NCBI GenBank assembly: GCA_024398095.1
Contig: JAKSJK010000017.1
Span: 1 to 32,469 of the forward strand
DNA: 32,469 nucleotides
Source: Bacteroidales bacterium
GTDB taxonomy: Bacteria > Bacteroidota > Bacteroidia > Bacteroidales > UBA932
Direction: 5' to 3'
Shown here: positions 13,021 through 32,469 of the stretch, piece after piece
Layout: each line of letters starts with the position of its first letter
Position numbering within the stretch: the stretch's first letter is position 1
Made by a program: the position numbers and the translations under genes
The notes under the pieces: generated by a model
What the model was told of the DNA's origin: nothing
The model's input: only the letters and a program-made list of their open reading frames with translations
The model's database searches: none

Positions 13021-13061
13021 CGTGTTTATACCTTTAAAACAGAAATCAAAGAAAATCAGAT

Positions 13062-13478
13062 ATGAAAAAAGGACTTGCAATCGGAGGAATCATCACCGCA
13101 CTGGTGATCCTCATCGCTGCCGGAACGGTGTATTTCCGCTACGGTTTCGTATTCGGAGAAGGCGTCAAGGCAGGCGTCCTCAACAGAGTCGTGTACAAGG
13201 GTTACATCTTCAAGACCTATGAGGGCTACATCATCCAGGACGGCATCAGTTCCAAGCAACTCAGCACCAAGGGCGGCAAGGTTACAACCGGAACCGCCAT
13301 CCAGTCCAACGAGTTCTATTTCTCCGTTACGGACAAAGCCATCGCCGACTCCCTGATGTACCACTGCGGAGGCAAGAAGGTCCAGCTCCACTACAAGGAG
13401 TACAAGGGCACACTCCCATGGCGCGGCCAGGAAAAGTTCATTGTCGACAAGATTGTTTCTGTCGAAGACGGAGAATAA
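13062..13478 (+). CDS. Conserved small membrane-anchored protein of unknown function
   Basis: 138 residues. The N-terminal segment GLAIGGIITALVILIAAGTVYF is a single uncleaved membrane anchor or signal. The rest is a small beta-rich exported domain with the blocks GVKAGVLNRVVYKGYIFKTY and GEY-like YEGYIIQDGI, FYFSVTDKAIADSLM and VQLHYKEYKGTLPWRG. This pattern (a 'kxxYKGxxFKTYEG' module) recurs in uncharacterised Bacteroidales proteins, some of them misnamed as 6-phosphogluconate dehydrogenase. It is certainly not that enzyme: it lacks any nucleotide-binding fold. It precedes the S9 peptidase gene by 12 bases. Function not assigned. Confidence 0.8.
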   Translation: MKKGLAIGGIITALVILIAAGTVYFRYGFVFGEGVKAGVLNRVVYKGYIFKTYEGYIIQDGISSKQLSTKGGKVTTGTAIQSNEFYFSVTDKAIADSLMYHCGGKKVQLHYKEYKGTLPWRGQEKFIVDKIVSVEDGE

Positions 13479-13490
13479 AGACATTTCCAT

Positions 13491-15401
13491 ATGAAAAGAA
13501 GCATTTTGAGCTGTACAGCCATGATTCTCGGACTCATGGCCTACGCCCAGGGCAGCGTCTGCAAGATACATCCGGCCAATCCGTCGGACGGAAAAATCCT
13601 CACGATGGAGGAAACCATTCTCTCCAGGCAGCTCTCCCCTTCCTGGCCAGACCTGAAACTGGACAGGCAGCAGCCGGAAGCGCCTATAGCCGAGACCAAA
13701 GACCAATCCCTCTGGGTGAACGGAGTATGCGTGGCTGAAAGCGAAGAGGACGGAATCGTCTACGGAGAATCTGTCAGCCGAAACGAGTTCGGCATCGACG
13801 GAGGCATATTCGTCAGCCCGGACAAGTCCAAGGTAGCCTTCTACCGCAAGGATGAAAGAGCCGTAACCCAGTTCCCCCTTCTGGACATAAAGGACCGGAC
13901 AGGTAAACTGAGGCTCATCCGCTATCCGATGGCCGGAATGACTTCCGAGAACATCAAGCTCGGCATCTATGATGTGGCGAGCGGCAGAACCGTCTGGTGC
14001 AAGGTGGACGATTTCGACGACGAACGCTACCTTACCAACATCAGCTGGACCCCGGACAGCAGGAAGGTCATCATCCAGGTGCTCGACAGGGCCCAGGAGA
14101 ATGTGCATATGAACATGTACAGTGCATCGGACGGACGTTTCCTGCGGACAATCCTCACCGAGCAGAACGATCGCTATGTAGAGCCTCAGGACCCGGTCTG
14201 GTTCCTCGAAGGCCGCGGAGACATCTTCCTCTACCGTACCGACAACCGTGACGCCTACCGCAATCTCTACCTCTGCGACACTCTCGGCACCGTGACCAGG
14301 CTGACCGATGTGGATGCGGATGTGCATTATGTGGCAAACGACGGCAGGTTCGTCTATTACACCTCTGCAGAAGTCTCCCCTGTCGAGAATCATCTCTTCC
14401 GCAAGGAGATCAAGTTCAAAAAGAAAGGTAAGATCGCGCTCGGAGCCGCCCAGAGGCTGACTTTCGCTGAAGGATGGCACAACATGATCCGCATAGAAAA
14501 CGGATGCAAGAGCTTCGTCGACCACTACTCCAGCCTCAACAACCCGGGCACAGTAGAAAGAATCGATGTCAGCGGCAAGAAGGTTGCCTATGAACTTCTC
14601 TCCCAGGCAAAGGACCCGACCGAGGGATATGCATTCACCGAAATCGACCTCGGCACCGTGAAGAGCGCAGACGGCCTCTACGACAACTGGTACCGTCTGA
14701 TCAAGCCTATCAACTTCGATCCATCGAAGAAATATCCAGTAATAGTCTATGTCTACGGCGGGCCTCATTCCCAGATGGTCCAGAACACCTGGCTTGCCCA
14801 GCTGCGCAGATGGGAGATGTACATGGCCCAGAGAGGTTACCTCGTCTATGTGCAGGACAACAGAGGCACCCAGAACAGGGGTGCAGAGTTCGAGAAAGCC
14901 ATCCACAGGCAGTGCGGACAGTGCGAGATGGCTGACCAGATGGTCGGCGTGGAGATGCTCAAGAGCCTCCCTTACGTAGACGCAGACCGCATCGGTGTCC
15001 ACGGATGGAGCTACGGCGGATTCATGACCATTTCCCTCATGACAAACTACCCGGAAACCTTCAAGGTCGGTGTTGCAGGCGGTCCTGTGATCGACTGGAA
15101 ATGGTATGAGGTCATGTACGGAGAGCGCTACATGGACACCCCGGAGAAGAATCCGGAAGGTTTCGCCAAGACCAGCCTCATCAACAAGGCAGGCGACCTC
15201 AAAGGCAAGCTGCTTATCTGCCAGGGCGCGGTAGACAACACCGTGGTCTGGGAGCACAGCCTCAGTTTCATCCAGGAATGCATCGACAGGGAAATCCCTG
15301 TGGACTACTTCCCTTATCCTGTGGCCGAGCACAATGTATTCGGGCGCAACCGCATCCATCTGATGGACAAAGTCTCACTCTATTTCGAAGATTATCTCTA
15401 G
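13491..15401 (+). CDS. S9-family (DPP IV-like) prolyl oligopeptidase, secreted
   Basis: 636 residues with an N-terminal signal peptide ending near AYAQG, so probably periplasmic. Residues ~70-400 are a DPPIV-type beta-propeller (FVSPDKSKVAFYRKDE, NISWTPDSRKVIIQVLDRAQ). Residues ~400-636 are the alpha/beta-hydrolase domain. The catalytic triad is visible: Ser507 in GWSYGG, Asp582 in GAVDNTV and His614 in AEHNVFG. DPP IV-like enzymes remove dipeptides after proline or alanine from peptide N-termini. Length is slightly below the ~700 residues of typical bacterial DPP IV. The expected Glu pair of the propeller that reads the free N-terminus was not identified, so exact specificity is open. It overlaps nothing and ends one base before the ABC transporter start. 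Confidence 0.92.
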   Translation: MKRSILSCTAMILGLMAYAQGSVCKIHPANPSDGKILTMEETILSRQLSPSWPDLKLDRQQPEAPIAETKDQSLWVNGVCVAESEEDGIVYGESVSRNEFGIDGGIFVSPDKSKVAFYRKDERAVTQFPLLDIKDRTGKLRLIRYPMAGMTSENIKLGIYDVASGRTVWCKVDDFDDERYLTNISWTPDSRKVIIQVLDRAQENVHMNMYSASDGRFLRTILTEQNDRYVEPQDPVWFLEGRGDIFLYRTDNRDAYRNLYLCDTLGTVTRLTDVDADVHYVANDGRFVYYTSAEVSPVENHLFRKEIKFKKKGKIALGAAQRLTFAEGWHNMIRIENGCKSFVDHYSSLNNPGTVERIDVSGKKVAYELLSQAKDPTEGYAFTEIDLGTVKSADGLYDNWYRLIKPINFDPSKKYPVIVYVYGGPHSQMVQNTWLAQLRRWEMYMAQRGYLVYVQDNRGTQNRGAEFEKAIHRQCGQCEMADQMVGVEMLKSLPYVDADRIGVHGWSYGGFMTISLMTNYPETFKVGVAGGPVIDWKWYEVMYGERYMDTPEKNPEGFAKTSLINKAGDLKGKLLICQGAVDNTVVWEHSLSFIQECIDREIPVDYFPYPVAEHNVFGRNRIHLMDKVSLYFEDYL

Positions 15402-17238: not shown

Positions 17239-17648
17239 TGAAGATCGACGCAAAAAAAATGAGAATCCTTTGGCAGATCACCGCTGTGATCTACCTGATT
17301 TGTGTGTTATTCCTGTGTTTCGGTCGCTTTGACAACGCACAGGACGACCTGCCTAACTTCATTTTAGGCATCCCCATGGACAAGGTCGGACATTTCCTCA
17401 TGTTCGTCCCGTTTACCATCATTGCAGTCTACGGCTTCCACAGAAGCACAGGCAAAGCCGGGCGCTTCATCCTCTTCATGTTTCTCGCCTATCTGCTAGG
17501 CACCGCCATGGCAGCCGGAATCGAGATCGGTCAGAGCTACACGGACTACCGCAGCTGCGACGCATTTGACTTCATGGCAGACACACTTGGTCTCTGTTTC
17601 GGAGCCGCTATAGTTGTAGCAGTACAATCAGCAACACAGAAATGGTAA
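17238..17648 (+). CDS. VanZ-like family membrane protein
   Basis: 136 residues with four hydrophobic helices (ITAVIYLICVLFLCF, FLMFVPFTIIAVYGF, FILFMFLAYLLGTAMAAG and LGLCFGAAIVVAVQ). The motifs MDKVGHFLMFVPF and EIGQSYTDYRSCDAFDFMAD are characteristic of VanZ-like proteins, where the H, E, D and N/D residues around the helices are conserved. VanZ gives low-level teicoplanin resistance in enterococci. Most family members, including these short Bacteroidota ones, have no known role. Its start overlaps the ABC transporter stop by one base, and its end overlaps the next gene by seven. Confidence 0.88.
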   Translation: MKIDAKKMRILWQITAVIYLICVLFLCFGRFDNAQDDLPNFILGIPMDKVGHFLMFVPFTIIAVYGFHRSTGKAGRFILFMFLAYLLGTAMAAGIEIGQSYTDYRSCDAFDFMADTLGLCFGAAIVVAVQSATQKW

Positions 17649-20632
17649 GAAAGACTCTCATATCGGCGGCACTTGCGTTTCTGTGTCTGGGAACCTCAGC
17701 CCAGACACTCAAGAAAACAGAATTCAAGGAAGAGTGCGATTCCCTGACTGCCCTCCTCCAGAAGAAAACAGGGGTGAAATCCGGTGTAAGCATAAAGAAT
17801 GTTGTCCTGAATGGACAGGTCATCAGTTTCACATTCACCGAGACTATCGGAGACTACCCTTGGAACAGCGAAAGCCTGAAGGAATTCCGCAAGGAAGTAC
17901 AGAAAAGACTGCCGGCAAAATACAAAGACAAGACAGTCGGCGAACTAACCTGTGTGGGCAGAAGCCTCAGCCGCTATGTGACCCTCCCTCTGGACAATGA
18001 CGGAAAGGCAGACAATTCGCCCTACCGTGTGAGCGAGCGGCGCTCGACCAAGCCTTTGGTCAGCAGAGATGACCAGGGAGTCTTCAAACAAGGCCTCAGC
18101 GGACGCCACCTTGCCCTCTGGCAGAGTCACGGACGTTACTACGAAATCAAACTCGGACGCTGGGAGTGGCAGAGAGCGACCATATTCGAAACAGTAGAAG
18201 ATCTCTACACCCAGAGCTATGTGGTTCCATTTCTCGTTCCGATGCTGGAGAATGCCGGTGCTGTTGTCCTGCTGCCGCGCGAACGCGATTTCAGCGCCTG
18301 CGAGGTCATAGCCGACAATGACGCCGGGATTTCCACTGGCGGCACATATTCAGAAAAAGGCAGCTGGAGCAGCGCGGGGACAGGTTTCTGCAATAAAAAA
18401 GAATGCTATACCGGAGTGGAGAACCCCTTCACCATGGGTACCGCCCGCAAGATAGAACAGAAAAAAGACTCAAAGGCATCGGCCTCCTGGAGCGCAGAAA
18501 TGCCCGAAAGAGGCACCTACGCCGTATATGTCTCCTACAAAAGTCTCCCCGAAAGCAGCGACTGTGCCAGCTACACTGTCCATCACCTGGGCGGTGACAG
18601 CCATTTCACAGTCAACCAGCAGATGGGTGGCAGCATGTGGGTATACCTGGGCAGCTTCGAACTGCCTGAGGGCAAATCAGAAGTCGTGACTCTCGATGCC
18701 GGCATTCCGTCCGGTCATAAGTCCGAAGGCAAAGTGGTCACCGCAGATGCCGTCAAAATCGGCGGAGGCATGGGCAACATTGCCAGGGGAACGGTCGAAG
18801 ACAACGGAGAGGGTCCGACAGTTTCCGGCATGCCGCGCTTCACAGAGGGCGCACGCTACTGGCTGCAGTGGTCTGGCTTTGATAAGAGCGTGTGGAGCCT
18901 CAATGAGCAGAAACACGACTACCGCGACGACTTCATGTGCCGGGGACCTTGGGTGGAGCACCTCACCGGCGGCTCAGCCGTGAATCCGAACGCCACCGCC
19001 GGTAAGAACATCCCGGTAGACCTGGCCTTCGCCTTCCACACTGACGCCGGCACCCGCAAAGACAGTTCCATCGTAGGCACACTGGCCATCTACACACTTC
19101 TCAAAGAAGGCAAGCAGCTCTACACCGACGGCAGCGACCGACTCGCCGCCCGTGAATATACCAACCTGGTGCAGACCCAGATTTGCGACGACATTCGGGC
19201 CCTCTACGCTCCCGAGTGGAGCAGAAGACAGACCTGGGACCGTTCCTACAGCGAATCCCGCATGCCGAATGTGCCGACCATGCTGCTGGAGCTGCTCAGC
19301 CACCAGAACTTCGCAGACATGAAATACGGCCTAGACCCGGCCTTCAGGTTTACGGTGAGCCGTGCAGTATATAAAGGTATGCTCAAGTTCCTTAGCAACC
19401 GTTACGGCTGCAGTTACCAGGTTCAGCCTCTGCCTGTAAACTCCTTCTCAGCGATCCTGAGTGAGGATAGGAGCAAAGTCAGCCTGAGCTGGAAAGCTAC
19501 GGAGGACAGACTTGAGCCGACAGCAAAACCGGATCGCTACATTCTGTACACAAAGATAGATGACGGAGGCTGGGACAACGGTGTACGCATCGACACCGAT
19601 CATTGCGAGGTAGACCTCCCTGCCGGTCACATATATTCCTGGAAGGTTGCGGCTGCAAACGACGGCGGGCTCAGTTTCCCATCCGGCGTGATGAGTGCAG
19701 GTGTGCCTGAAAATGCCGGAAAGACAATGCTCGTAGTGGACAATTTCGACAGGGTTGCCGGTCCGACCTTCTACGACAGTGAAGAGTACGCGGGCTTCGA
19801 CAACCGTCAGGACGGGGGCATAGGCTGGAACTACGACTGTTCATATATAGGCGACATGTACGAATGGCACAGAGTCGAGCCATGGCAGGACGACGATTGT
19901 CCTGGCTTCGGCGCGTCGTACGTGGACTTCGCAGACAAGATCATTGCTGGCAATACCTTCGACTGGAGCGAACGTCACGGCAGATTGATATTCAACAGCG
20001 GCTACGCCTTCTGTTCGGCGTCTGCAACCGCCTTTGCGGCCCGTCCCGAACTTGCACAGTCAGCCCAGGCCATAGACCTGGTCTGCGGCAAGCAGGTAAC
20101 CACCATGACCGGTATCGCCCGCTACGGCTACAGGTACAGCGTCTTCACACCCGAACTTCAAAAGGCGATATCGGGCTATACAGCCAACGGAGGCAGCATG
20201 CTGGTCAGCGGAGCGTACATAGGCACAGATGCCTGGAGCTATGTCTACCCCATCAAGATAGATAAGGATGCAGCGGCCAAGACCCAGGATTTCTGCAAGA
20301 ACGTGCTGGGCTACATCTGGCGAACGAATTACGGAAGCCGCAACGGCACAGTACGCGCCGTAGGTGGATTCGATATGAAGTCCAGGATTCAGATATGCAA
20401 CGAAAAGAACCGCAGTACCTATGTGGTTGAGTCCCCGGACGGAATCGAGCCTTCCGGCAGCAAAGGCAAAGTTGTTTTCAGATACTGCGACAGCAATGTG
20501 GCTGCAGGAGTTTTCTTCGATAACGGGAAATACCGTGTGCTGAGCATGGGATTTCCGCTCGAAGCCATCACCGATGTCCAGGCTGCCCAGTCGCTGATGG
20601 ACAAGTCACTAGAGAAAATTTTCAATAAATAA
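17642..20632 (+). CDS. Secreted N-acetylmuramoyl-L-alanine amidase-like protein with golvesin and Fn3 domains ('xanthan lyase'-type)
   Basis: 996 residues with a signal peptide ending GTSAQ. An amidase_3-like zinc fold appears split in two. The first half carries a His near residue 163 (WQSHGRYYE) and a Glu near 183 (FETVEDLYTQ). The second half resumes around residue 455 with FAFHTDAGTRKDSS, supplying another His. Between them (about 215-390) lies a golvesin-C/xanthan-lyase-like beta-sandwich (GTYAVYVSYKSLPE, WVYLGSFELPEG). A fibronectin type III domain follows at ~600-690, then a C-terminal domain with a flavodoxin or ThuA-like feel (GGSMLVSGAYIGTD). Peptidoglycan amide-bond cleavage is the likely activity. 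The 'xanthan lyase' label of database relatives is probably misleading. It overlaps the VanZ-like gene by 7 bases. Confidence 0.85.
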   Translation: MVRKTLISAALAFLCLGTSAQTLKKTEFKEECDSLTALLQKKTGVKSGVSIKNVVLNGQVISFTFTETIGDYPWNSESLKEFRKEVQKRLPAKYKDKTVGELTCVGRSLSRYVTLPLDNDGKADNSPYRVSERRSTKPLVSRDDQGVFKQGLSGRHLALWQSHGRYYEIKLGRWEWQRATIFETVEDLYTQSYVVPFLVPMLENAGAVVLLPRERDFSACEVIADNDAGISTGGTYSEKGSWSSAGTGFCNKKECYTGVENPFTMGTARKIEQKKDSKASASWSAEMPERGTYAVYVSYKSLPESSDCASYTVHHLGGDSHFTVNQQMGGSMWVYLGSFELPEGKSEVVTLDAGIPSGHKSEGKVVTADAVKIGGGMGNIARGTVEDNGEGPTVSGMPRFTEGARYWLQWSGFDKSVWSLNEQKHDYRDDFMCRGPWVEHLTGGSAVNPNATAGKNIPVDLAFAFHTDAGTRKDSSIVGTLAIYTLLKEGKQLYTDGSDRLAAREYTNLVQTQICDDIRALYAPEWSRRQTWDRSYSESRMPNVPTMLLELLSHQNFADMKYGLDPAFRFTVSRAVYKGMLKFLSNRYGCSYQVQPLPVNSFSAILSEDRSKVSLSWKATEDRLEPTAKPDRYILYTKIDDGGWDNGVRIDTDHCEVDLPAGHIYSWKVAAANDGGLSFPSGVMSAGVPENAGKTMLVVDNFDRVAGPTFYDSEEYAGFDNRQDGGIGWNYDCSYIGDMYEWHRVEPWQDDDCPGFGASYVDFADKIIAGNTFDWSERHGRLIFNSGYAFCSASATAFAARPELAQSAQAIDLVCGKQVTTMTGIARYGYRYSVFTPELQKAISGYTANGGSMLVSGAYIGTDAWSYVYPIKIDKDAAAKTQDFCKNVLGYIWRTNYGSRNGTVRAVGGFDMKSRIQICNEKNRSTYVVESPDGIEPSGSKGKVVFRYCDSNVAAGVFFDNGKYRVLSMGFPLEAITDVQAAQSLMDKSLEKIFNK

Positions 20633-22761: not shown

Positions 22762-24429
22762 CTAGCTGAGTCCTTCTATCTGTCCGTCTACAAGATCTAT
22801 TCTCAAAGCCTGAGGCGACTTCGGAAGGCCAGGCATGCGGATGATGGAACCGGCGATGGCAACTATCATCTCGGCACCTGCATTGATCACGATATCCTGG
22901 ATATCGATGTCGAATCCCTTTGGAGAACCATATGCCTCCGGATCCTGTGAGAATGAATACTGAGTCTTGGCGATGCAGACTGGAAAACCTGCAAATCCGC
23001 CTGCGACAGCCTCCGCGATATGCTTCTTGGCAAGATCGCTGAAATGAACGCCGTCTGCGCCATATATCTTCTTTGCGACAGCCTCGATCTTATCTTCGAT
23101 GGAAGCCTCCAGAGGATAGGTGAACTGAAGCGGCTTCGAAGGATTCTCTTCTATGGTCTTGACTACCAGGTCGGCAAGTTCCACCGCACCCTGTCCGCCC
23201 TCGCAGAAGGCGTTGTTGATTGCAAACGGAACACCGAGTTCTGCACAATGCTCACGCACGAGATCCATCTCCTCCTTGGTGTCGGAGGCGAACTGGTTGA
23301 AGCATACGAGCACGGTCTGGCCGAAACCATGGAGGTTTGCGATGTGACGGTCCAGGTTGCAGAAGCCTGCTTTGACAGCCTCCGGAGCCGGAAGTTTCAG
23401 ATCTTCCGCTGCTACACCGCCGTGCATCTTGAGGCCCTGGAGAGTGGCAACGATGATAGTCAGAGCCGGCTGGAGACCTGCCACACGGCACTTGATGTCG
23501 AGGAACTTCTCAGCGCCGAGGTCTGCAGCAAAGCCAGCCTCCGTGATTGTATAGTCGCCATAGGTCATCGCCATCCTGGTGGCTATGATAGAGTTGCAGC
23601 CGTGCGCGATATTGGCGAACGGACCGCCATGGATGAATGCAGGAGTATTTTCCGTGGTCTGCACGAGGTTAGGGTTGATGGCATCCTTGAGCAGAACAGT
23701 AATGGCTCCACCTATGCCGAGGTCCTTGACCTTGAGCGGCTGGTCATCCATCGTATAGCCAAGCAGGATGTTGTCTATCCTTCTGCGAAGATCGTCCAGA
23801 TCCTTCGACAGACAAAGTATGGCCATAATCTCTGATGCCGGGGTGATATCAAAGCCTGACTCATGAGGATCGCCGTTGGAAGCAGGTCCGAGGCAGGTCA
23901 TTATCTGGCGGAGAGAGCGGTCGTTCACATCCATAACCCTCTTCCAGAGAATCTCCTTCATCTGGAAACCTTCGGCGCGACGCTGATAGATGTAGTTGTC
24001 CAGCAGGGCTGAAATCATGTTGTTGGCAGAAGTGATTGCATGGAAGTCACCGGTAAAGTGAAGGTTTATCTTCTCCATTGGCACCACCTGCGCATATCCT
24101 CCGCCTGCAGCACCGCCCTTCATGCCGAAGCAAGGGCCAAGTGAAGGCTCCCTCAGGGCCAGGACAGCCTTGCGGCCGCTCTTTGCCATTCCGAGCGCGA
24201 GGCCTACTGAAACGGTGGTCTTGCCGATACCGGCCTTGGTCGGAGTAATGGCGGTGACAAGAATCAGCTTGCTCTTAGCCATCTTTTCCTTATCGATCAG
24301 TTCGTAAGGGACTTTGGCGATGTATTTGCCGTAAGGCTCAAGTGCTTCCCTGCTTATGCCGAGACCGTCTGCGATCTCACCGATAGGCTTCAGAACGGCT
24401 TCTCTTGCGATTTCAATATCAGTCTTCAT
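22762..24429 (-). CDS. fhs: Formate-tetrahydrofolate ligase
   Basis: Couples formate to tetrahydrofolate with ATP, giving 10-formyltetrahydrofolate for purine and formyl-Met-tRNA synthesis. The 555 residues match the family length. Diagnostic segments are the P-loop [10 protein letters not shown] at residues 62-71, [20 protein letters not shown] and the adjacent [15 protein letters not shown], and [13 protein letters not shown]. In formate-producing anaerobes it recycles formate into one-carbon metabolism. It lies 2 bases after the hydrolase gene and 1 base before manC. Confidence 0.97.
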
Positions 24430-24431
24430 AG

Positions 24432-25385
24432 TTACTCTACCTGGTTCTTAAGGAAATTACGAACTACTGCAGTATATTCAGCCGGGTGATCCTTGTAAGA
24501 TTCAGCATGCTTGGAGCCCTCTGCTATCCACATTTCGCGGTAACCGTTCACCTTTGCGTCATAGTTGCGGTACACATTCTCCGTGAGAACGTAATCGTCG
24601 TTGTCACCGTGGATGAAAAGCACAGGAAGTTCGCATTTTGCAAGCTGGTTCACAGAAGATGCTGTCTTGAAATCCCAACCGTACCTGCACTTTGTGATAA
24701 GGTTTGCAGAATGCAGTATAGGGAATGGAGGCAGGCCGAACTGGCCCTTGAGTTCCTTGGAGAACTGTTCCCAGACAGAACTATAGCCGCAGTCGTCGAT
24801 GAAGCCCTTTACATATTCAGGGAGTTCGTCGCCGGAAACCATCATTGTGGTTGCCCCACCCATGGAGATGCCATGGACAACCATGATGCTGTCCTGGAAG
24901 ATTTCGTGTGCGATCGGAATCCACTGCTCCACATCCAGACGGTCCTTCCAGCCCATCTGGATTGCATCACCCTCGCTGCCTGCGTGGAAATTCAGTGCAG
25001 GGAGCAGGATATTGTAACCGAGAGAATCACGGAACATCCTGGCGATGTGCATCATTGACATAGGGTTGGAGGTGTAGCCGTGCACGATGACGGCGCTGCG
25101 ACCGGTATTCTGCTCAGCCTCTGCATAGTATGCACGGATGCGGAACCCTTCGTCATCAGTAATGACTGTGTCCTTCATCACATCTGCAGCCTGAAGAGAG
25201 TCGACCCACTCCATGAGGAACGGATACCTGTTGTCGAGTTTGTCGTGGTCTTCCTGCTCCGTGCCGACATCAGCCTTAAGAGCGTAATTCACCATATATG
25301 CACCAGCGCCGTAGCTGACGCCTGCAAAAAACAACACGAGTACTCCGAGTACCCATGCTGCAATTCTGACACTTTTCTTTGCCAT
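24432..25385 (-). CDS. Membrane-anchored alpha/beta hydrolase
   Basis: 317 residues. The N-terminal [22 protein letters not shown] is a membrane anchor or uncleaved signal, so the enzyme probably faces the periplasm. The hydrolase fold shows an oxyanion-type [10 protein letters not shown], the nucleophile elbow HGISMGG with Ser174, an acid in HGDNDDYV (Asp261 or Asp263) and a His near residue 293 in GSKHAESY. It resembles the BAAT/YfhR-type and acyl-peptide-hydrolase-like esterases (YtaP/BEM46 group). The substrate is unknown. Its placement between upp and fhs gives no functional clue. Confidence 0.87.
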
Positions 25386-25388
25386 ATA

Positions 25389-26018
25389 TTACTTTGTTCC
25401 GAAAATACGGTCGCCGGCATCGCCGAGACCAGGCATGATGTAGCAGTTCTCGTTCAGGCAGCGGTCCACTGCTGCCACATAGATATCCACGTCAGGATGC
25501 TTCTCCTGTACCGCCTTGATGCCTTCCGGTGCAGCCACGAGGCACATGAGGCGGATGTCCTTGCATCCATGCTCCTTGATGAGATCAAGCGCGTCGCAGG
25601 CGCTGCCGCCTGTTGCGAGCATAGGGTCGGTAACGATCACCATGCGGTTCTCGATGCCCTTAGGGAACTTGCAGTAGTATGGCACCGGCTTGTGGGTCAC
25701 CTCGTCGCGGTAGAGACCGATATGGCCGATACGTGCAACCGGGATGAGAGCCCTGAGTCCGTCCACCATTCCGAGACCTGCACGGAGGATAGGTACGATG
25801 GCAACTTTCTTTCCGGCAATCCTCTTCTGGACCGTCTTCTCCATCGGAGTCTCGATCTCAACATCCTCAAGCGGGAAGTCGCGAGTGACTTCATAGCCCA
25901 TGATGAGGGAAATCTCATAAAGGAGCTCTCTGAAGGTTGAAGAAGGGGTGTTTTTGTCGCGCATGATCGTCAGCTTGTGCTGGATCATAGGATGGTCAAT
26001 GACATGTAATTGGCTCAT
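25389..26018 (-). CDS. upp: Uracil phosphoribosyltransferase
   Basis: Salvages uracil with PRPP to give UMP. The 209 residues carry all of the usual blocks: [44 protein letters not shown], the PRPP loop [12 protein letters not shown], and the uracil-binding C-terminus [17 protein letters not shown]. The length is exactly as expected. It begins 11 bases after the MATE transporter gene and ends 3 bases before the hydrolase gene. Confidence 0.97.
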
Positions 26019-26029
26019 GATTATCAGGT

Positions 26030-27451
26030 TTAGTTATTTTCTGTCCTTAAAGTTACGTTATTTTTCAATACATAGCGCTGGCTATATAGAAGAATTGCAG
26101 CAAGAAGTGCTCCCATGATGTCGCTTATGACGACAGAAATCCAGATCCCCGTCAGTCCCTGGCCTCCCAGCGCGGCTACGATCGGTGGGATGATGTAGAT
26201 CATCGGGAGAAGGAACAGCACCTGACGGCTGAGGCTTGTGGTGATTGCCACCCAAGGCTTGTCGATGGACTGGAAGAAGTGCGAGTTGGTGATAGTAAAG
26301 CCGATCAGAGGGAACATCACCAGCATGTAGCGCATGGCCGGAGTACACATCTGGAGCATGTTGACGTCGCGGGTGAACATGGATGCCAGCGCAGTCGGGA
26401 ACACGAGTCCGAGGAAGGCGCCCACCGAACCGACCAAGACATTCACCTTCGTTGCCAATATCAATACCCCTTTCAGACGGTCCGAATGTCCTGCACCGTA
26501 GTTGTATCCGGCGATAGGCTGCATTCCTTGGCATATTCCGATGATGAACATCACAATGAAGCTGCAGAAGGTGTTGCACACGCCGTAAGTTCCCACGGCA
26601 AGGTCACCGGCATGTTCGCCGTAGACGCCGGAGAGTTCCGCACCGTAACGCAGCAGCTGAGAGTTGAGCATCGCAACAACTGCGGACGCAGCCACATTCA
26701 TAGAGAACGGGCTTATGCCTATGAGCAGTATGTTCTTGAAAATGTAGAATCTCGGTTTCCAGGCGTGCCTGCGGAAACGTATGAAGGATGACTTCTTGCA
26801 GAAATGGATGATCGCAGCCACGGCAGTGGAAGCCATAGAGATCGTAGTAGCCCATGCCGCACCTGCGATGCCCCAATGGCACACGAAGATGAAGATAGGG
26901 TCCAGGATCATGTTGAGAACCGCGCCGCCGACGAGGATAAACATGGATTTCACCGGGTAGCCCGTCGCCCTCATCAGGCCTGTGAGGTTGAAGGTCAGTG
27001 TGGTGAGGAACATGCCCGGCAGCACGATGAGCATATAGGTCCTGGCATATTGCAGGGTCAGTTCGGAGGCTCCGAAGAGGCCAAGAATGCCATCGAGGAA
27101 GCCATAGCAGATGCTCAGGAAGATGGCGCCGAAGAAAAAGGTCAGCAGCAAGCTGTTGCCAAGGATGTTCTCGGCCCAATTGATGTCTTTCTTGCCAAGT
27201 ACGATGGACATGCGCGCAGCCGAACCGGCTCCTACGAGCGATCCGAATGCGTGTATGATGTTCATTACGGGGAGTGTAATCGCAAGGCCTGCAATCGCCA
27301 TTGCATCCACGCCCTGGCCGATGAAGATACGGTCGGCGATGTTGTAGATCGAGGCGATCACCTGGCTTATGACCGAAGGAAGCGCATAAGCCAGCAGCAG
27401 CGCGCCTATGCCCTTGGTCTCAAGTTCCTTTGTTCTGTCAAGTTCATTCAT
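26030..27451 (-). CDS. MATE family multidrug/toxin efflux transporter
   Basis: Sodium- or proton-coupled efflux protein of about 12 membrane helices, 473 residues from the start chosen here. MATE features include [24 protein letters not shown]-type helix 1 (shown with a break), [20 protein letters not shown] and the repeat in the second half, [15 protein letters not shown]. The open frame extends upstream to 27814. The extra 121 codons cross a TATATTTG promoter box, a long inverted repeat and a frameshifted RHS scrap, none of it MATE-like, so the ATG at 27451 ([20 protein letters not shown]) is the start. It leads a compact series with upp, the hydrolase, fhs and manC. Confidence 0.93.
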
Positions 27452-27459
27452 AGCGGGCG

Positions 27460-27467
27460 CAAATATA
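27460..27467 (-). promoter_or_regulatory. Candidate -7 box for the MATE-upp-fhs-manC series
   Basis: Minus-strand TATATTTG fits TAnnTTTG and sits 8 bases upstream of the MATE ATG, implying an almost leaderless transcript. No good -33 TTG is visible. The box supports the shorter MATE start. Confidence 0.5.
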
Positions 27468-27484
27468 CGAAATCTTCCTGATAC

Positions 27485-27562
27485 AGTTCGGGGCATCGCA
27501 GCGTCCTCGCTCCGCGAAGCATAGGGATATGCTCCGCGAGGCCATCTGTGATGCCCCGAACT
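27485..27562. repeat. 78-bp imperfect inverted repeat with nested hairpin
   Basis: Outer arms AGTTCGGGGCATCGCAG (27485-27501) and CTGTGATGCCCCGAACT (27546-27562) pair at 16 of 17 positions. Inside, AGCATA-ggga-TATGCT forms a second stem flanked by GC-rich CCTCGC/GCGAGG-type partners. There is no T-run on either side, so it is not a standard terminator. It lies between the MATE promoter and the RHS scrap and may be a dispersed palindromic element or a recombination scar. Confidence 0.75.
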
Positions 27563-27603
27563 CTCATTGCTGTATTTCCAGAAGCTCACATCAACATAAT
27601 TGG

Positions 27604-27740
27604 GCTGAACACGAACGGGCCTATGTATTCGTATCCGTTGAGTGATGAATCCATGACGCCACACCTGTTTCCATCCGAAAGATAGGAATAATTCACAGAG
27701 CTTTCGAGAGTCTCCACTCCACATAACATGGCATCGTCGT
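27604..27740 (-). pseudogene. RHS core fragment, frameshifted remnant
   Basis: Bases 27604-27703 match 30291-30390 of the intact RHS module at 96 of 100 positions without gaps. In the RHS frame it reads SSVNYSYLSDGNRCGVMDSS and then LNGYEYIGPFVF before a stop. Just upstream PCYVE is encoded in a different frame: the segment joining it is 17 bases where the intact copy has 12, a 5-base length change. It has neither a start nor a tip, and is the leftover of a third RHS module. Confidence 0.88.
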
Positions 27741-27779
27741 GAAGTATAGTGGATGCTATAATCGAGGTTCAGGCTCACT

Positions 27780-28628
27780 CTATAAACAAAGACACCGAAC
27801 AAAACGAATCTCATTCACTTGCGGAGTCATATCAATAAAATGCCTTGAAAAAGAATCTAAAGCTGCCAAATATTCCCAGCAAAAATCTTCGGCCCTAAAA
27901 TTATCTACATCGATTTCTGAAAATACCCGAGAAGAATCATCTCGTAAATAGATTTCAGTGAAGTTGGGGACCTCTATTATTTCAATGCCATTAGCCTTGG
28001 AGTATTTCATATGCACATTAAATGGAATGGTACAGCTACCATCTGTCTTAACCCATAAGCTATTTCGAAACGATTTTGAGATCTCAGCTATACCTGTTTG
28101 GAAAGTCCCATTTAATTCAAAGTCCATGAGGTCTAGAATTACCCTGCCACTTGAGTTTAAAAAAACCGGGGAATATCTATATGTCAATCCCCAAGGCGCA
28201 CTCTCTCCGCGTTTTCTCTCATTGATTCGGTCTATCACTGTACCATGCATGACGAAACCAGCCTTATTCTTACTGTCATATAGATAGAATTGATTCTGAG
28301 ATGAAACGATATTTACGCAGCCTGTCAATAAAACATCTCTAAGCGGTTGGTGTGGCACATCACGACCAAGTTTTACCCCACAATCGTAATATATCTCCAT
28401 CCCATCATACGACTCCATATCTAATACAAAGTTGTATAAGTCGCTAACATTGCTTGGATATGCATGATAATCTTCGAAATAAGATTGTACTATCATCCAA
28501 TATGGACAATCAATCCGTTGATGTCTTATTGATTTCCGAATGACCCATTGATTTCCCGTGCATGATAACATAATGCACGCAATAAAAACCAGAATAGCCT
28601 TGTACAATATGCAGTTAGAGTATCTCAT
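27780..28628 (-). CDS. Putative lipoprotein of unknown function in the RHS accessory region
   Basis: 282 residues from the ATG at 28628, which puts a lipoprotein signal at the N-terminus (KAILVFIACIMLSC, lipid cysteine at residue 23). An in-frame ATG 14 codons upstream would bury that signal. The mature part has no family I recognise. It begins with a possible helical stretch (YWMIVQSYFEDYHAYPSNVS), typical of small substrate-binding or 'pilin-like' N-termini, and the rest is beta-rich with several acidic patches. Base composition is clearly AT-richer than the core genes nearby. It has its own -7 box at 28757-28764 and sits just upstream of the RHS remnant, so it may be cargo, possibly an immunity or surface protein, of a lost RHS module. 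Confidence 0.75.
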   Translation of the reverse strand: MRYSNCILYKAILVFIACIMLSCTGNQWVIRKSIRHQRIDCPYWMIVQSYFEDYHAYPSNVSDLYNFVLDMESYDGMEIYYDCGVKLGRDVPHQPLRDVLLTGCVNIVSSQNQFYLYDSKNKAGFVMHGTVIDRINERKRGESAPWGLTYRYSPVFLNSSGRVILDLMDFELNGTFQTGIAEISKSFRNSLWVKTDGSCTIPFNVHMKYSKANGIEIIEVPNFTEIYLRDDSSRVFSEIDVDNFRAEDFCWEYLAALDSFSRHFIDMTPQVNEIRFVRCLCL

Positions 28629-28756
28629 CGATTGATTTTCCCAAAGTTTGTTCCAAATAACTTGTTGCAAGAATTCAAGAATGCTTGAGCTTCAATAATT
28701 TCCCTAAAATAGGCTTGAAAAGATAGGAAAGAGTTAATAGATTAGTGTTCGAAGGA

Positions 28757-28764
28757 CAAATATA
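28757..28764 (-). promoter_or_regulatory. Candidate -7 box for the 27780-28628 lipoprotein gene
   Basis: Minus-strand TATATTTG, 128 bases upstream of the chosen start. It lies immediately after the two hairpins that follow the previous gene, an arrangement of terminator then promoter. Confidence 0.45.
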
Positions 28765-28768
28765 GAAA

Positions 28769-28815
28769 TCTCTCCGTGAATTTCACAGAGAATCCCAAGC
28801 GTCCGTTCTGCGGAC
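28769..28815 (-). terminator. Two short hairpins after the 28816 gene, possible terminator
   Basis: GTCCG-CAGAA-CGGAC directly follows the stop codon (28801-28815). TCTCTGTGA-aat-TCACGGAGAGA (28769-28791, with a small bulge) comes next, ending in ATTTCTAT. The T-run is weak, so termination is only likely. Confidence 0.4.
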
Positions 28816-29289
28816 TCAGTGAGACATCACTAAACTTTTCACACGATGGACGATACCGCTTCCAGTATCGTAAAACAGTCTCTCAGTACGAATGCCGAGA
28901 GAGTCACAGACTTTGGTAAAATCATCTTTTAAATACGGCCCATAACCTTGATCAGAACGTTTGTCTATCAACCAATAGTAATCTGAATCAAGAGAGCCTG
29001 GGAATACTGATGGGCAATTATATAAACCACAATTATAACGGCCTCCGGGATTCTGCATTACGAGAATTACATCCCTGTCGTAAACTATTCTCTTTATTTC
29101 AGGAGGAATATCAGGTTTAGGCTTAGAAACTGTAGAGAAATAACAATTCAAGTCACTTAGGATATGTCGATTTTCTGGTACATAATAATAGCCCTTCCCT
29201 AAATTATATTTTTCTTGATTACATAAAGAAACACAGCATAACACGCATACAAGAAGCATACATTTATGTGTCAGTCCTATTTTAGCCAT
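28816..29289 (-). CDS. Small exported protein, DUF3997-like; candidate immunity protein for the RHS tip
   Basis: 157 residues. The N-terminus (CMLLVCVLCCVSLCNQ) is a hydrophobic export signal, with a weak lipobox at VSLC. The mature part reads YNLGKGYYYVPENRHILSDL, IPPEIKRIVYDRDVILVMQN, DYYWLIDKRSDQGYGPYLKD and DFTKVCDSLGI. This order (a 'GYYYV' start, a '.I.PP.I..Y.YD..fI' strand, then 'YWIIDK....YGPL....F...'), resembles the DUF3997 family of small lipoproteins; the assignment is from memory and tentative. Its ATG lies inside the end of the RHS gene (13-base overlap), the usual coupling of a toxin with its immunity gene. Function is inferred from position only. Confidence 0.7.
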   Translation of the reverse strand: MAKIGLTHKCMLLVCVLCCVSLCNQEKYNLGKGYYYVPENRHILSDLNCYFSTVSKPKPDIPPEIKRIVYDRDVILVMQNPGGRYNCGLYNCPSVFPGSLDSDYYWLIDKRSDQGYGPYLKDDFTKVCDSLGIRTERLFYDTGSGIVHRVKSLVMSH

Positions 29290-30524
29290 GGCACTAAAGG
29301 TTTTAACTTCGCTGTCCCATAGAAATGAATATCGTATGGCGTTCCTTTTCCAGCATACATAGACCCAATTATAGTTTCAAAATTTCTTGGCCAATTAAGA
29401 ATATTTGCCCAACTTTTCATATCGAAATTATATGTATCTTCAAATGTACGGACACCATGATCAGGATACCTGCGAAATGAAATATTTCCGTATACAAGTC
29501 CATCCTTTAAACTGAAATTATAGAGCAAATTAAAACAATACGTCTTCCCTACGTACTTCTCTCCCCACGAACGAAAGGCAGATAAATTAATTTTTCTCAG
29601 ATCAACATATAACCTCTGTCCATTACCGGATTTATACCACTCATTTGCCTCATCCAAAGTCAAATAGCCGTCCCAATCTGGTCTTGTTGGAAGAGAAGAA
29701 TGATTCCGGCTAAAATTCATAAATGCGTCATCATTAACCAAACCAGCTAAACCCATATCTAGTTGCATAACCTGCGCAGAGGTCATTGAAATATTATAAT
29801 CAGCCCTTGGAACAATTATCGCATCCCCCTGTAGTCCACTGTCAGTGGTACCAATCAAATTTCCATATTCATCATAGATAGGATTTCTCCCATCCGGGTC
29901 TACATAATTCACCGGGTCGCCTGCACAGAAGGACAGAGGGTTGACTGTGTGGTTCTTCTCGAAGAGCGGGTCAGGGGTTGTCCACATCGGGATTACCGGG
30001 CTGTACATGCGGGCGCCGTAGTCGTAGAGGTTCACGGAATCAAAGTTCTGGAACTCCTTGCCGTTGAAACCATGAGGATTATCCCCGGACGAGGGCAAAG
30101 AGGTGTTCCACAAACTTCCGTAAGGCGTATAGTCATAGAATTTCACCTCGCCGGCGGCATCCCTCGCACGGACGCTGCCGAGGTAGTCCATTGACCAGTA
30201 TTCCGGGACTAGCCCATCCTGACCCGGCACACGAACAAAGCGGCCGCAAGACATGTCGGCGGAGGACAAAGTCAGATTCTCCCCGTCCCGGCTGTACACG
30301 AACGGTCCTATGTATTCGTATCCGTTGAGTGATGAATCCATGACGCCACACTTGTTTCCATCCGAAAGATAGGAATAATTCACAGAACTTACAGGGGTTT
30401 CAACATAACACGGCAGATTCAGGATATTATATGAAATTGACCTGTCCTCCCGGCCGCTATAGGTCTGCCGCCCCATGGCATCATAGATGAGATCCGGAAA
30501 TGATTTAGCGTTTAATCCAACCAC
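29277..30524 (-). CDS. 5'-truncated RHS-repeat protein C-terminus with variable tip (module 2)
   Basis: Frame open from 30536; a GTG at 30524 gives 415 residues. It begins within the RHS shell (IYDAMGRQTY, SYNILNLPCYVETP), continues through the repeat-associated core (DYLGSVRARDAAGEVKFYDY, FNGKEFQNFDSVNLYDYGAR, MYSPVIPMWTTPDP, NPLSFCAGDPVNYVDPDGR at ~213) and then changes to a variable tip of about 200 residues. The tip includes LTLDEANEWYKSGNGQRLYV, CFNLLYNFSLKDGLVYGNIS and AGKGTPYDIHFYGTAKLK, blocks I recall from other Bacteroidota RHS proteins of unknown activity. The signal peptide, the bulk of the YD repeats and the upstream shell are all missing. Core codons are GC-richer than the tip. 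It overlaps the preceding lipoprotein gene by 20 bases, and may be a displaced donor cassette without its own expression. Confidence 0.85.
   Translation of the reverse strand: MVGLNAKSFPDLIYDAMGRQTYSGREDRSISYNILNLPCYVETPVSSVNYSYLSDGNKCGVMDSSLNGYEYIGPFVYSRDGENLTLSSADMSCGRFVRVPGQDGLVPEYWSMDYLGSVRARDAAGEVKFYDYTPYGSLWNTSLPSSGDNPHGFNGKEFQNFDSVNLYDYGARMYSPVIPMWTTPDPLFEKNHTVNPLSFCAGDPVNYVDPDGRNPIYDEYGNLIGTTDSGLQGDAIIVPRADYNISMTSAQVMQLDMGLAGLVNDDAFMNFSRNHSSLPTRPDWDGYLTLDEANEWYKSGNGQRLYVDLRKINLSAFRSWGEKYVGKTYCFNLLYNFSLKDGLVYGNISFRRYPDHGVRTFEDTYNFDMKSWANILNWPRNFETIIGSMYAGKGTPYDIHFYGTAKLKPLVPWLK
29891..29958 (-). repeat. RHS core direct repeat, partner of 32402-32469
   Basis: 68 bp coding NHTVNPLSFCAGDPVNY and the DPDGR that closes the RHS core. 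It matches 32402-32469 at 60 of 68 positions without gaps. The repeat probably continues past the window edge at the other copy. Such core repeats are the sites where tips can be exchanged by recombination. Confidence 0.9.
30291..30390 (-). repeat. RHS core direct repeat, partner of 27604-27703
   Basis: The intact copy of the 100-bp segment repeated at 27604-27703, with four substitutions and no gap. It encodes part of the RHS shell around YLSDGNKCGVMDSSLNGYEY. Confidence 0.9.
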
Positions 30525-31794
30525 TGTATAAGAAAATCAGATTTTCTTGACCATCTATGCTCACAATATATACATTAACCTTCAACATATCTAACGACTC
30601 TTCTTCTACCTCTAATACAAAGTCAGCTATTGATGTTTGCTGATAAACGTGTCCAATGATGTCAATAGCAGATGAGTCCCTATATACGACATCGTCTTTA
30701 CATACCCTATACAGTGGACGATTTGGTAAAACATGTTTTTCAACACCAAAATTTGTCATCGTCCCGACCGCATTGTCCTCAACAATACCCATATCTGGAA
30801 AATAACGCAACAAATACGAATACTCTGCGCCACCAGAGCCAAATATATTGCGCGTCCATCCCGTCAGGCCATTGACGGTAACCTTAAACCAATCGCAACC
30901 TTCAATGTCATCAACAGAAAAAAATGTGAAATAAATACAATCTGAAATATCCACCGAAATATACTCCCCAGACTCTTCTGGGACGAGATATAGTTTCAAC
31001 ATTGGATTCTTGGCATTGATATAATAATCACAATCAAGAAATCCACCTATTTTGCTCTTATCTACCCATCCACGATATAAAAAAAACAATTCACTTTTTC
31101 CGATTGAATCTTGACTTTCGTCAACAAGGAACACATTTGCATTAAACCTGTTCTCGCTGGAAGATATAACGAAAAAAACAAAAGAAAACTGATTGATTCC
31201 AGATATATTTCCGATTATATCGGCAGAAACTGAATCTTTATAGACAGCCATGGGGCCATGAGGGTACAACAGGACAGGGCTAAAAGGCCTTGGTCGAATG
31301 CCATCGGCTGTGAATCCATCAAAACCCAATAACTCAACCTTGGAAGTACGATGATACGAATACGTCCTATACGAGCCACACCTGTTTTTTCCATACTTCC
31401 TGCGACCAGACAGCGGCTTCCACAACTTGCTACCCGATACTATAGATTCTAATGTATCAAATTGAGAGCCGAAAATCCTACATTTAATTCCATCCAGATA
31501 GCCAACGCCCAAACATCGTGATGGAATCGTACGTCCCCCTCCCATACTGCCAGGAAAACAGACTATTATTGTAGTATCAACGTTACGCTTATAATACTCA
31601 TCATGGTGCCAACGGCTAATATCAAAACATATATCGACTTGTTTAAGTTTTGAATTACCATATTTTGAAAAATCCAGCACAATACTATCCAACTGAGGAT
31701 CTTTAAAAAGGGGGGAACCGAATGATGAACGAATATTGCAAGAAACAATGGATGTCAACAACAAAGGCAAGAAAAATTTAGGTATCATTTCCAT
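30505..31794 (-). CDS. SH3-repeat-like lipoprotein, candidate immunity protein for the RHS tip at the window edge
   Basis: 429 residues from 31794, or 427 from the ATG at 31788. The latter forms an ATGA overlap with the RHS stop and is equally likely. The signal IPKFFLPLLLTSIVSC ends in a good lipobox. Three SH3b-like repeats follow: residues ~184-245 (VYKDSVSADIIGNISG then FFLYRGWVDKS), ~266-318 (LYLVPEESGEYISV then WFKVTVNGLTGWTRN) and ~369-428 (VYRDSSAIDIIGHVYQ then LIFLYSGWIKR). The first and third are clearly related. The N-terminal ~170 residues are not recognised. SH3b repeats normally bind peptidoglycan or proteins; this could block a secreted toxin in the periplasm, which is inference. 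Base composition is AT-rich. Confidence 0.75.
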   Translation of the reverse strand: MEMIPKFFLPLLLTSIVSCNIRSSFGSPLFKDPQLDSIVLDFSKYGNSKLKQVDICFDISRWHHDEYYKRNVDTTIIVCFPGSMGGGRTIPSRCLGVGYLDGIKCRIFGSQFDTLESIVSGSKLWKPLSGRRKYGKNRCGSYRTYSYHRTSKVELLGFDGFTADGIRPRPFSPVLLYPHGPMAVYKDSVSADIIGNISGINQFSFVFFVISSSENRFNANVFLVDESQDSIGKSELFFLYRGWVDKSKIGGFLDCDYYINAKNPMLKLYLVPEESGEYISVDISDCIYFTFFSVDDIEGCDWFKVTVNGLTGWTRNIFGSGGAEYSYLLRYFPDMGIVEDNAVGTMTNFGVEKHVLPNRPLYRVCKDDVVYRDSSAIDIIGHVYQQTSIADFVLEVEEESLDMLKVNVYIVSIDGQENLIFLYSGWIKR

Positions 31795-32469
31795 GGCCTA
31801 CTAACTATTTTGGGGGTTGGAATACGCGATTTGTTAATTGCATATTTTCGTCCACTGAAAGGGAAAAAAACAATTGAAGTTACTCCAGATCGTATATATT
31901 CAGAAACATCATTATTATAATAAGGAGATTCGCACCAATCGCATGTTCCACTGCCAATGTAATGTCCTTTAGAATCAAATGAGCTAGCATAATAGAAATC
32001 GTAGCCCATCGACTCCAATTCAGCCTTCTCATTATCAAGTTCATCCGAATGAGAATGCATTTTCCAGACAGTCTTATTTAATGGATCACTCACGCCGCTT
32101 CTTTTCTTGTTTGTCACTAAAGCGTACTCTCTATCATTCAAATACAACCCCCACTCACTTTGAAAGAACACACTCGCCGCAAAATAAAAAACATTCTCAA
32201 TATCTATTCTACACACATCTTTCGGGGCTCTGCCTCCATTCACAAGTGATGGTAAAATATTCGTATCCCGCACTTTTAAAAACTTTTGTTCTGAATATGA
32301 ATTAGTCGATGAGTAAGCATAAAGTCTGTCAAACGGTTCTTCCTTGTGTTCCTCAATAAAAACAATCGCTCCTGTATCATCAACACTATACCAATCCCTC
32401 CCATCTGGATCGAAATAATTCACCGGGTCACCTGCACAGAAGGACAGCGGATTGACTGTGTGATTCTTC
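31785..32469 (-). CDS. RHS-repeat protein C-terminus with JAB/MPN-metallopeptidase-like tip (partial, 5' end outside window)
   Basis: The frame runs open from the window edge (32469) to a TGA at 31785, 227 residues visible. The first ~24 residues are RHS core (NHTVNPLSFCAGDPVNYFDP DGR, shown with a break); the remaining ~203 are the tip. The tip has FFQSEWGLYLNDREYALVTN, then VWKMHSHSDELDNEKAEL. A glutamate in a beta strand, followed ~40 residues later by H-S-H, is the pattern of the JAB/MPN (JAMM) zinc peptidase fold, found in several polymorphic-toxin and RHS proteins. The canonical S-x(2)-D downstream of the histidines is not clear, so the assignment is moderate. Its stop overlaps the SH3-repeat lipoprotein start. 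Confidence 0.75.
   Translation of the reverse strand, partial: KNHTVNPLSFCAGDPVNYFDPDGRDWYSVDDTGAIVFIEEHKEEPFDRLYAYSSTNSYSEQKFLKVRDTNILPSLVNGGRAPKDVCRIDIENVFYFAASVFFQSEWGLYLNDREYALVTNKKRSGVSDPLNKTVWKMHSHSDELDNEKAELESMGYDFYYASSFDSKGHYIGSGTCDWCESPYYNNDVSEYIRSGVTSIVFFPFSGRKYAINKSRIPTPKIVSRPWK
32402..32469 (-). repeat. RHS core direct repeat at the window edge, partner of 29891-29958
   Basis: Same 68-bp core segment as 29891-29958 with 8 differences, ending at the last base of the window. It marks the end of the conserved core of the next RHS module. Confidence 0.9.

Follow-up and report, generated by a model that had tools for sequence, protein, structure and literature searches.

Organization of the array in the window

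The window is the whole of contig C59 (GenBank JAKSJK010000017.1, 32,469 nucleotides) from a draft Bacteroidales genome of 2.45 Mb in 149 contigs that is 82% complete (GCA_024398095.1). Its right end carries, on the minus strand, fragments of an RHS core joined to unlike C-terminal tips and followed by genes for putative immunity proteins. The open reading frames of this array lie at 31785-32468 (open at the contig end), 30505-31794, 29277-30524, 28816-29289 and 27780-28670, all on the minus strand.

Module 1 enters from the contig end with the last 72 bases of the core (32398..32469), which match a full-length core elsewhere in the genome at 68/71 positions (32469-32399). Tip 1, a putative toxin domain of 203 residues, follows at 31785..32396 and putative immunity gene 1 (429 residues) at 30505..31794; both are without a family match. 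The start of the immunity gene overlaps the stop of the tip by 10 bases (ATG at 31794, end of the stop at 31785). The core fragment of module 2 (29886..30503) begins right after the stop codon of immunity gene 1. It is followed by tip 2, a putative toxin domain of 202 residues (29277..29885) with partial relatives in the genus, and by putative immunity gene 2 (28816..29289, 157 residues), which matches DUF3997 barely above the Pfam cut-off and whose start overlaps the stop of tip 2 by 13 bases (29289/29277). The NCBIfam model Rhs_assc_core was matched by the module 2 frame at 1.8e-16 and by the module 1 frame at a sub-threshold 0.024 only. Thirteen residues precede the core match in module 2, for which a GTG start is possible at 30524.

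Past immunity gene 2 lies a terminator-like hairpin (28770..28792), which is weak, as six such sites were found in the region against 3.6 expected. It is followed by a promoter-like element, TATATTTGTCCTTCGAACACTAA (28742..28764), that is common to the 5' end of the full-length rhs operon, and by an open frame of 38 codons (28625..28741), a possible toxin stub, joined by an ATGA overlap to the gene for a putative orphan immunity lipoprotein of 282 residues (27780..28628). The array closes with a 115-base pair (bp) core scrap (27603..27717), the remnant of a further module, which is identical to the full-length core at 109/115 positions (95%). Lipoprotein-like N-termini were read by eye in the three putative immunity genes. 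Both tip frames and all three immunity frames of the window are open.

A first-pass annotation had described two minus-strand core pieces that end at a DPDGR boundary and then switch to unrelated tips, and this description holds at the same coordinates: the cores match, and tips 1 and 2 are unrelated (BLASTP best E 5.8). With the tip of the full-length gene included, the three tips are mutually dissimilar (best E 0.11, 2.4 and 5.8). A small gene had been said to overlap each RHS stop by 4-13 bases; the overlaps were found (10 and 13 bases), but at 429 residues the first of these genes is not small. The third RHS scrap, placed at 27604-27740, is present with a core match that runs over 27603-27717, and the further exported-protein gene continuing the series (27780-28670) more likely starts at ATG 28628. 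Module 2 does lack a signal peptide by eye, as had been noted, together with most of the shell, but does not lack YD repeats altogether, one YD-like stretch (YDAMGR) being visible by eye at its start. The overall anatomy proposed, that of orphan rhs-CT/immunity modules with core fragments, a boundary, unrelated tips and overlapping downstream genes, was borne out.

A full-length rhs gene with the same core

The first-pass annotation had called for a search for a full-length rhs gene sharing the core. When the core was used as a DNA query against this genome, four places were returned, the three in the window and one on contig C117. C117 carries a two-gene rhs operon, in which a frame of 1012 residues (RHS_repeat) is followed by one of 1424 residues (DUF6443, RHS_repeat), both with signal-peptide-like starts by eye. 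The second gene ends in the same core and continues into a tip of its own and an overlapping lipoprotein-like gene; this tip contains a HEIGH stretch and a sub-threshold match to Peptidase_M57 (E 0.047). The module 2 core (30501-29888) aligns with the C117 core without gaps at 570/614 positions (93%), and the match stops at the DPDG boundary. This answers the first part of the refuting condition set in the first-pass annotation, the lack of any full-length rhs gene in the genome. A similar two-gene layout recurs in G396:C19 (L098), where a frame of 1009 residues is directly followed by one of 1439 residues with its own signal-peptide-like start, and in G274 (L047; 978 and 1185 residues). Other rhs frames of the genus are single and about 2000-2400 residues long. 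The sheath protein of the type VI secretion system (T6SS; PF05943) was not found in the 82%-complete genome and was detected in an E. coli control. Export by Sec is therefore likelier than by T6SS, given the signal-peptide-like starts and the sheath not being found in an incomplete genome.

The core repeats were aligned for recombination breakpoints, a check also proposed at first pass, and identity was found to be patchy. Over their 614 aligned bp, module 2 and the full-length core differ at 44 sites but are identical in one run of 150 bp (p 5e-5 by permutation, and p 0.002 when only third positions are used). At sites where these two differ, the core scrap carries the full-length allele at six and then the module 2 allele at two; it also has four changes of its own. 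The pattern fits gene conversion, to which uneven constraint could contribute. The patches, together with the open tip frames of the window and core homology comparable with the 522 bp at 95% reported for Salmonella (Koskiniemi et al. 2014, PMC3967940), would suit an array kept mainly for swapping tips onto the full-length gene by core recombination, as in evolved Salmonella. Against such a reserve of tips, the full-length gene is not adjacent and no swapped state was observed; its standing is taken up below with the fate of the toxins.

C59 ends in exactly 55 bases (32469-32415) that are identical to the C117 core, and contigs C13 and C112 start with the same 55 bases and then diverge. C13 and C112 carry a second core clade, 93% identical to each other (blastn, 583 bp) and 57-60% to the window core (last 180 bases). 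A de Bruijn assembler run at k=55 would be expected to leave shared ends of this length wherever its graph forks, and from these exact shared contig ends the upstream half of module 1 was probably lost to assembly. Module 1 may be an orphan, or it may be the tip of a further full-length gene, and the contig end is compatible with either. The fork could also be read as a mixed population, in which some cells carry tip 1 on the full-length core through a live swap or a rearrangement between C117 and C59. The divergence of C59, C13 and C112 at the same 55 bases is consistent with this, but the fork would be accounted for equally well by a further copy in this genome that failed to assemble, and the genes found past the array differ between C117 and C59. 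A mixed population of this kind is considered very improbable.

Orphan modules across the genus

Searches of the genus covered 400 genomes, one per species, with the genome studied here included. The core protein was found in 121/400 genomes at E<=1e-10. Twenty stretches were fetched in which at least 2 core matches lie close together on one contig; because they were chosen in this way, they say nothing on prevalence. A long rhs frame, defined as one with at least 450 residues ahead of the core, stands first on its strand in all of the stretches that have one (12/12). The 41 orphan core fragments, two of them from the window, start at model positions 2 to 163, with 13 at the start of the model. 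A scan of genome contigs gave one distant locus.

Core DNA was compared in pairs drawn from 52 core ends, those of the own genome included. Median identity was 0.84 within a genome (53 pairs, cross-clade pairs included) and 0.63 between genomes (1208 pairs). Tips could be scored for 47/53 of the within-genome pairs, and 45 of these show no clear similarity, with scores of <=48 (raw scores, taken without shuffles); the other two score 278 and 492. The pair at 492, orphan modules at 1037 and 7056 in G323:C19 (L054) with closely related tips, is perhaps a duplicated cassette. In G027:C6 (L058; 7601 and 8993) the full-length tip and a downstream scrap share the first residues after the boundary, and the displaced copy may be the same tip, decayed. 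Most orphan tips in the selected arrays are about 160-230 residues long.

An ATG frame of at least 80 residues starts at 39/49 tip ends, compared with 30% of random positions in the same stretches. A hydrophobic N-terminus was found in 31 of the 39 (4.9% at random positions). Core fragments with variable left ends and exact right ends, headed by a long gene, are marks of tip displacement as described for Enterobacteriaceae (PMC2935791).

Decay of toxins beside immunity genes

Tip 2 was matched in 9 other genomes, mostly in part. At five places (C128 of the own genome, G396, G087, G120 and G068) only the last part of the tip is matched and an immunity-2-like gene follows. A short separate piece of the beginning of tip 2 is also left in C128 and G087, and stops lie inside the G120 stub. 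Tips of long frames are matched in G335 (residues 2-175, 30%) and G346 (residues 1-119, 33%), in both over part of the domain only.

A search profile for immunity 2 was built from six proteins and returned 13 loci (14 rows, two of which are one place). The tip is whole at 2/13 loci (C59 and G014:C28) and reduced to a 3' stub at 7/13 (C128, G396, G087, G120, G068, G378 and, at E 0.005, G014:C18), the matched part of the stubs being 15 to 78 residues. One locus is cut by a contig start (G064) and three have no detectable tip (G140, G283 and G222). The immunity frame is open at 6/7 stub loci. Nine of the tips are whole or stubbed. PW[IL]K forms the C-terminus of six of them and PWIH that of one, and the remaining two have other endings; C128 equals C59. 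The PW[IL]K codons overlap the first codons of the immunity gene, and the stub may survive because it holds the translation start region of that gene.

The relatives and C128 thus point to retention of immunity genes amid toxin decay as much as to a toxin store, and decay at this one immunity family favours an immunity bank that would have formed by displacement. That the toxin at these loci is more often a stub than whole speaks against an array maintained chiefly as a reserve of tips. Many orphan tips in the selected arrays have the lengths given above and are not decayed, which suits such a reserve; as the main use of the array it is nevertheless judged rather unlikely.

A promoter-like element before two immunity units

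A piece of the array of 1679 bp, comprising the end of tip 2, immunity gene 2 and most of the lipoprotein gene, is duplicated at 100% identity on contig C128. Next to the duplicate stand 61 bp from tip 2; a net 248 bp are missing between these two pieces, and no core is present in the 6.3 kb fetched. At the other end (L045 6041-6305) the duplicated lipoprotein gene loses its last 17 codons. Homology stops there at window position 27831, and the unrelated sequence that follows, up to the end of the contig, may be an insertion element. Near the end of C46 lies a further scrap of the array in two parts: 109 bp (L103 4456-4564) are 97% identical to window 27728-27836, and 30 bp (L103 4362-4391) are 93% identical to window 28788-28817.

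The pattern TATATTT-N(4-10)-GAACACTAA occurs four times in the 2.45 Mb genome, and its reversed control does not occur. One site precedes the C117 operon and one the C128 remnant; the other two precede the lipoprotein gene, in C59 and in the copy on C128. GAACACTAATCTATTAA is common to the C117 and C59 copies, and on C117 it stops 5 bases short of the ATG with which the first gene starts. Two relatives of the lipoprotein gene were found outside the own genome when 333 genomes were searched. The relative in G191 comes right after an RHS core-plus-tip frame, and that in G199 right after a frame of 152 residues which is related to the G191 tip and has no core in it. Since both relatives follow RHS-related frames, the lipoprotein gene probably belongs to an RHS-linked immunity family.

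Each of the two immunity units resembles an rhs operon from which all that separates the promoter from the tip's end has been lost. We tentatively suggest, at somewhat less than even odds, that a weapon was converted to a shield by a deletion that joined the promoter of the rhs operon to the last codons of the toxin, leaving a unit of promoter, stub and immunity gene. Two such events would have occurred in the genome, one on C128 and one ahead of the lipoprotein gene of the window, where the stub is only putative. The toxin-stub half of the pattern recurs at six other immunity-2 loci of the genus.

Fragments of this kind could alternatively be plain debris of rhs duplication and decay, with no present function as store or shield. 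The core scrap at 27603-27717, the tip 2 copy on C128 with its net loss of 248 bp and the array pieces on C128 and C46 would all be accounted for in this way, as would the damage to immunity genes in G120 and G222. The open tip and immunity frames of the window, the outlasting of toxins by immunity frames at 6/7 stub loci and the promoter-like element before two immunity units argue the other way, and debris as the whole explanation appears quite unlikely.

Flanking genes and further searches

Left of the array, window 3421-24429 contains ordinary genes by NCBIfam, among them those for glycerol-3-phosphate dehydrogenase GlpC and GlpA, RimO, an MsbA-like ABC transporter and formate-tetrahydrofolate ligase. 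Two of the seven frames tested there (13056-15359 and 17642-20632) had no NCBIfam match. Reading the minus strand from the right end, a MATE transporter gene comes next after the core scrap. GC content agrees with this organization: in 400-base blocks it is 34-45% in the tips and immunity genes, 53.5% in a block inside the core (30000-30399) and 47-55% in the flank at 24000-27599. A short repeat at 27498-27548 is 92-95% identical to sequence downstream of two other RHS loci, on C13 (1567-1617) and C112 (1783-1833 and 2036-2075). C117 bears its own GCGAAGCGAG repeats.

No relative of tip 1 was found outside the own genome in the 400 genus genomes. Searches of Pfam, NCBIfam, PADLOC and PDB sequences for the toxin class of the tips gave nothing usable, nor did comparison of immunity 1 with PDB sequences. 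Single-sequence folds had a mean predicted local distance difference test score (pLDDT) of 32 for tip 1 and 34 for tip 2. A JAB-like reading of tip 1, suggested by an HSH stretch, was considered and dropped. A sigma-70 scan of the array was uninformative (16 sites found, 15.8 expected). Rfam gave no match at the gathering threshold, and viral contigs held no relative of the core or of tip 2.

Interpretation and relation to known systems

The array is read, with a probability of about 85%, as an orphan rhs-CT/immunity array in which tips have been displaced and the immunity parts last, with protection as its likely use and reuse of tips second. A full-length rhs gene, either the C117 operon or an unassembled sister copy, would display one C-terminal toxin tip. 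Judging from the anatomy, a tip-immunity cassette that arrives would enter by recombination in the conserved core, and the previous tip would be shifted downstream together with its immunity gene. What stays of each displaced module would be a tip and an immunity gene behind an exact boundary and a piece of core whose length varies. The displaced tip is expected to be silent, as its core has no export signal, unless recombination in the core returns it to the full-length gene, which is possible. With starts that fall within the final codons of the tips, the immunity genes seem to outlast the toxins, which in relatives decay to 3' stubs. Two immunity units stand behind a copy of the promoter-like sequence of the rhs operon and are presumed to be expressed from it. 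The likely benefit would be to shield the cell from siblings and neighbours in which those tips persist.

Several observations weigh against this reading. The full-length gene is on C117 and the window contig ends inside core 1, so the array is not beside it. Strain mixture in an 82%-complete draft of 149 contigs could explain the contig forks and the exact duplicate on C128, and within-genome similarity of cores could come from recent duplication as well as from recombination. The search profile had itself been built from six of the 13 immunity-2 loci, four of them picked for having stubs. The seven loci outside the profile comprise three with stubs (one the C128 copy, one at E 0.005), one that is contig-cut and three with none. 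Immunity genes decay too, with a stop near the end of the match in G120 and a match in two frames in G222. The similarity of the 38-codon frame to the G199 and G191 tip ends does not exceed that of shuffles (0.25 and 0.71), which leaves it unproven as a toxin remnant. The sequence upstream of the G396 stub shares no stretch with the two long-rhs regions fetched from G396, the only other genome so compared, and a TAnnTTTG motif stands before only 1/6 stubs elsewhere (G396).

The component phenomena have been published: orphan rhs-CT modules, displacement of tips, displaced effectors with kept immunity, and orphan immunity in gut Bacteroidales (PMC2935791, PMC3150448, PMC5361080, PMC12247911). 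In Enterobacteriaceae, dissociated rhs tips were described downstream of rhs genes as partial-core fragments of varying length with dissimilar tips (Jackson et al. 2009, PMC2935791). The window likewise has core fragments with unlike tips; in that study, cores were near-identical within a genome and exchange was confined to one core clade. Unlike that case, the present one is from a genus of Bacteroidota, the rhs system is made of two genes and the full-length copy lies on a separate contig. Poole et al. (2011, PMC3150448) reported orphan cdiA-CT/cdiI and rhs-CT/rhsI modules and already proposed the ideas of a reservoir and of broad immunity. Those modules, like the present ones, lack start signals and have a conserved boundary peptide and an adjacent immunity gene, which was still expressible there. 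Here, in contrast, a promoter-like element and a toxin stub precede immunity genes, and function is predicted from sequence.

Main and orphan rhs genes of Salmonella recombine through core homology of 522 bp at 95% (614 bp at 93% here); recombination was demonstrated there and the genes are adjacent, whereas here recombination is only possible (Koskiniemi et al. 2014, PMC3967940). The T6SS orphan immunity arrays of Vibrio cholerae resemble the window in that immunity is kept, effectors are displaced and a 3' end of the effector is left (Kirchberger et al. 2017, PMC5361080). They differ in that no T6SS link was seen here, PF05943 not having been found in the incomplete genome. In gut Bacteroidales, too, immunity genes occur without their toxin and are thought to protect against neighbours (PMC12247911). 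There immunity is to T6SS effectors and lies in recombinase-linked clusters, whereas here it lies beside RHS core and tip fragments. A literature search, which drew on sources available in part, turned up no account of rhs-CT arrays in a comparable genus.

With these findings, the displacement of rhs tips known from Enterobacteriaceae is extended to a large genus of another lineage, and they add the decay of toxins to stubs beside immunity frames that are mostly open. This toxin-stub pattern is a concrete and checkable sign of selection for immunity. The genus offers many natural arrays in which a toxin store can be tested against an immunity bank by asking which half decays first. Going by sequence, such an array may be no less a shield than a store of tips.

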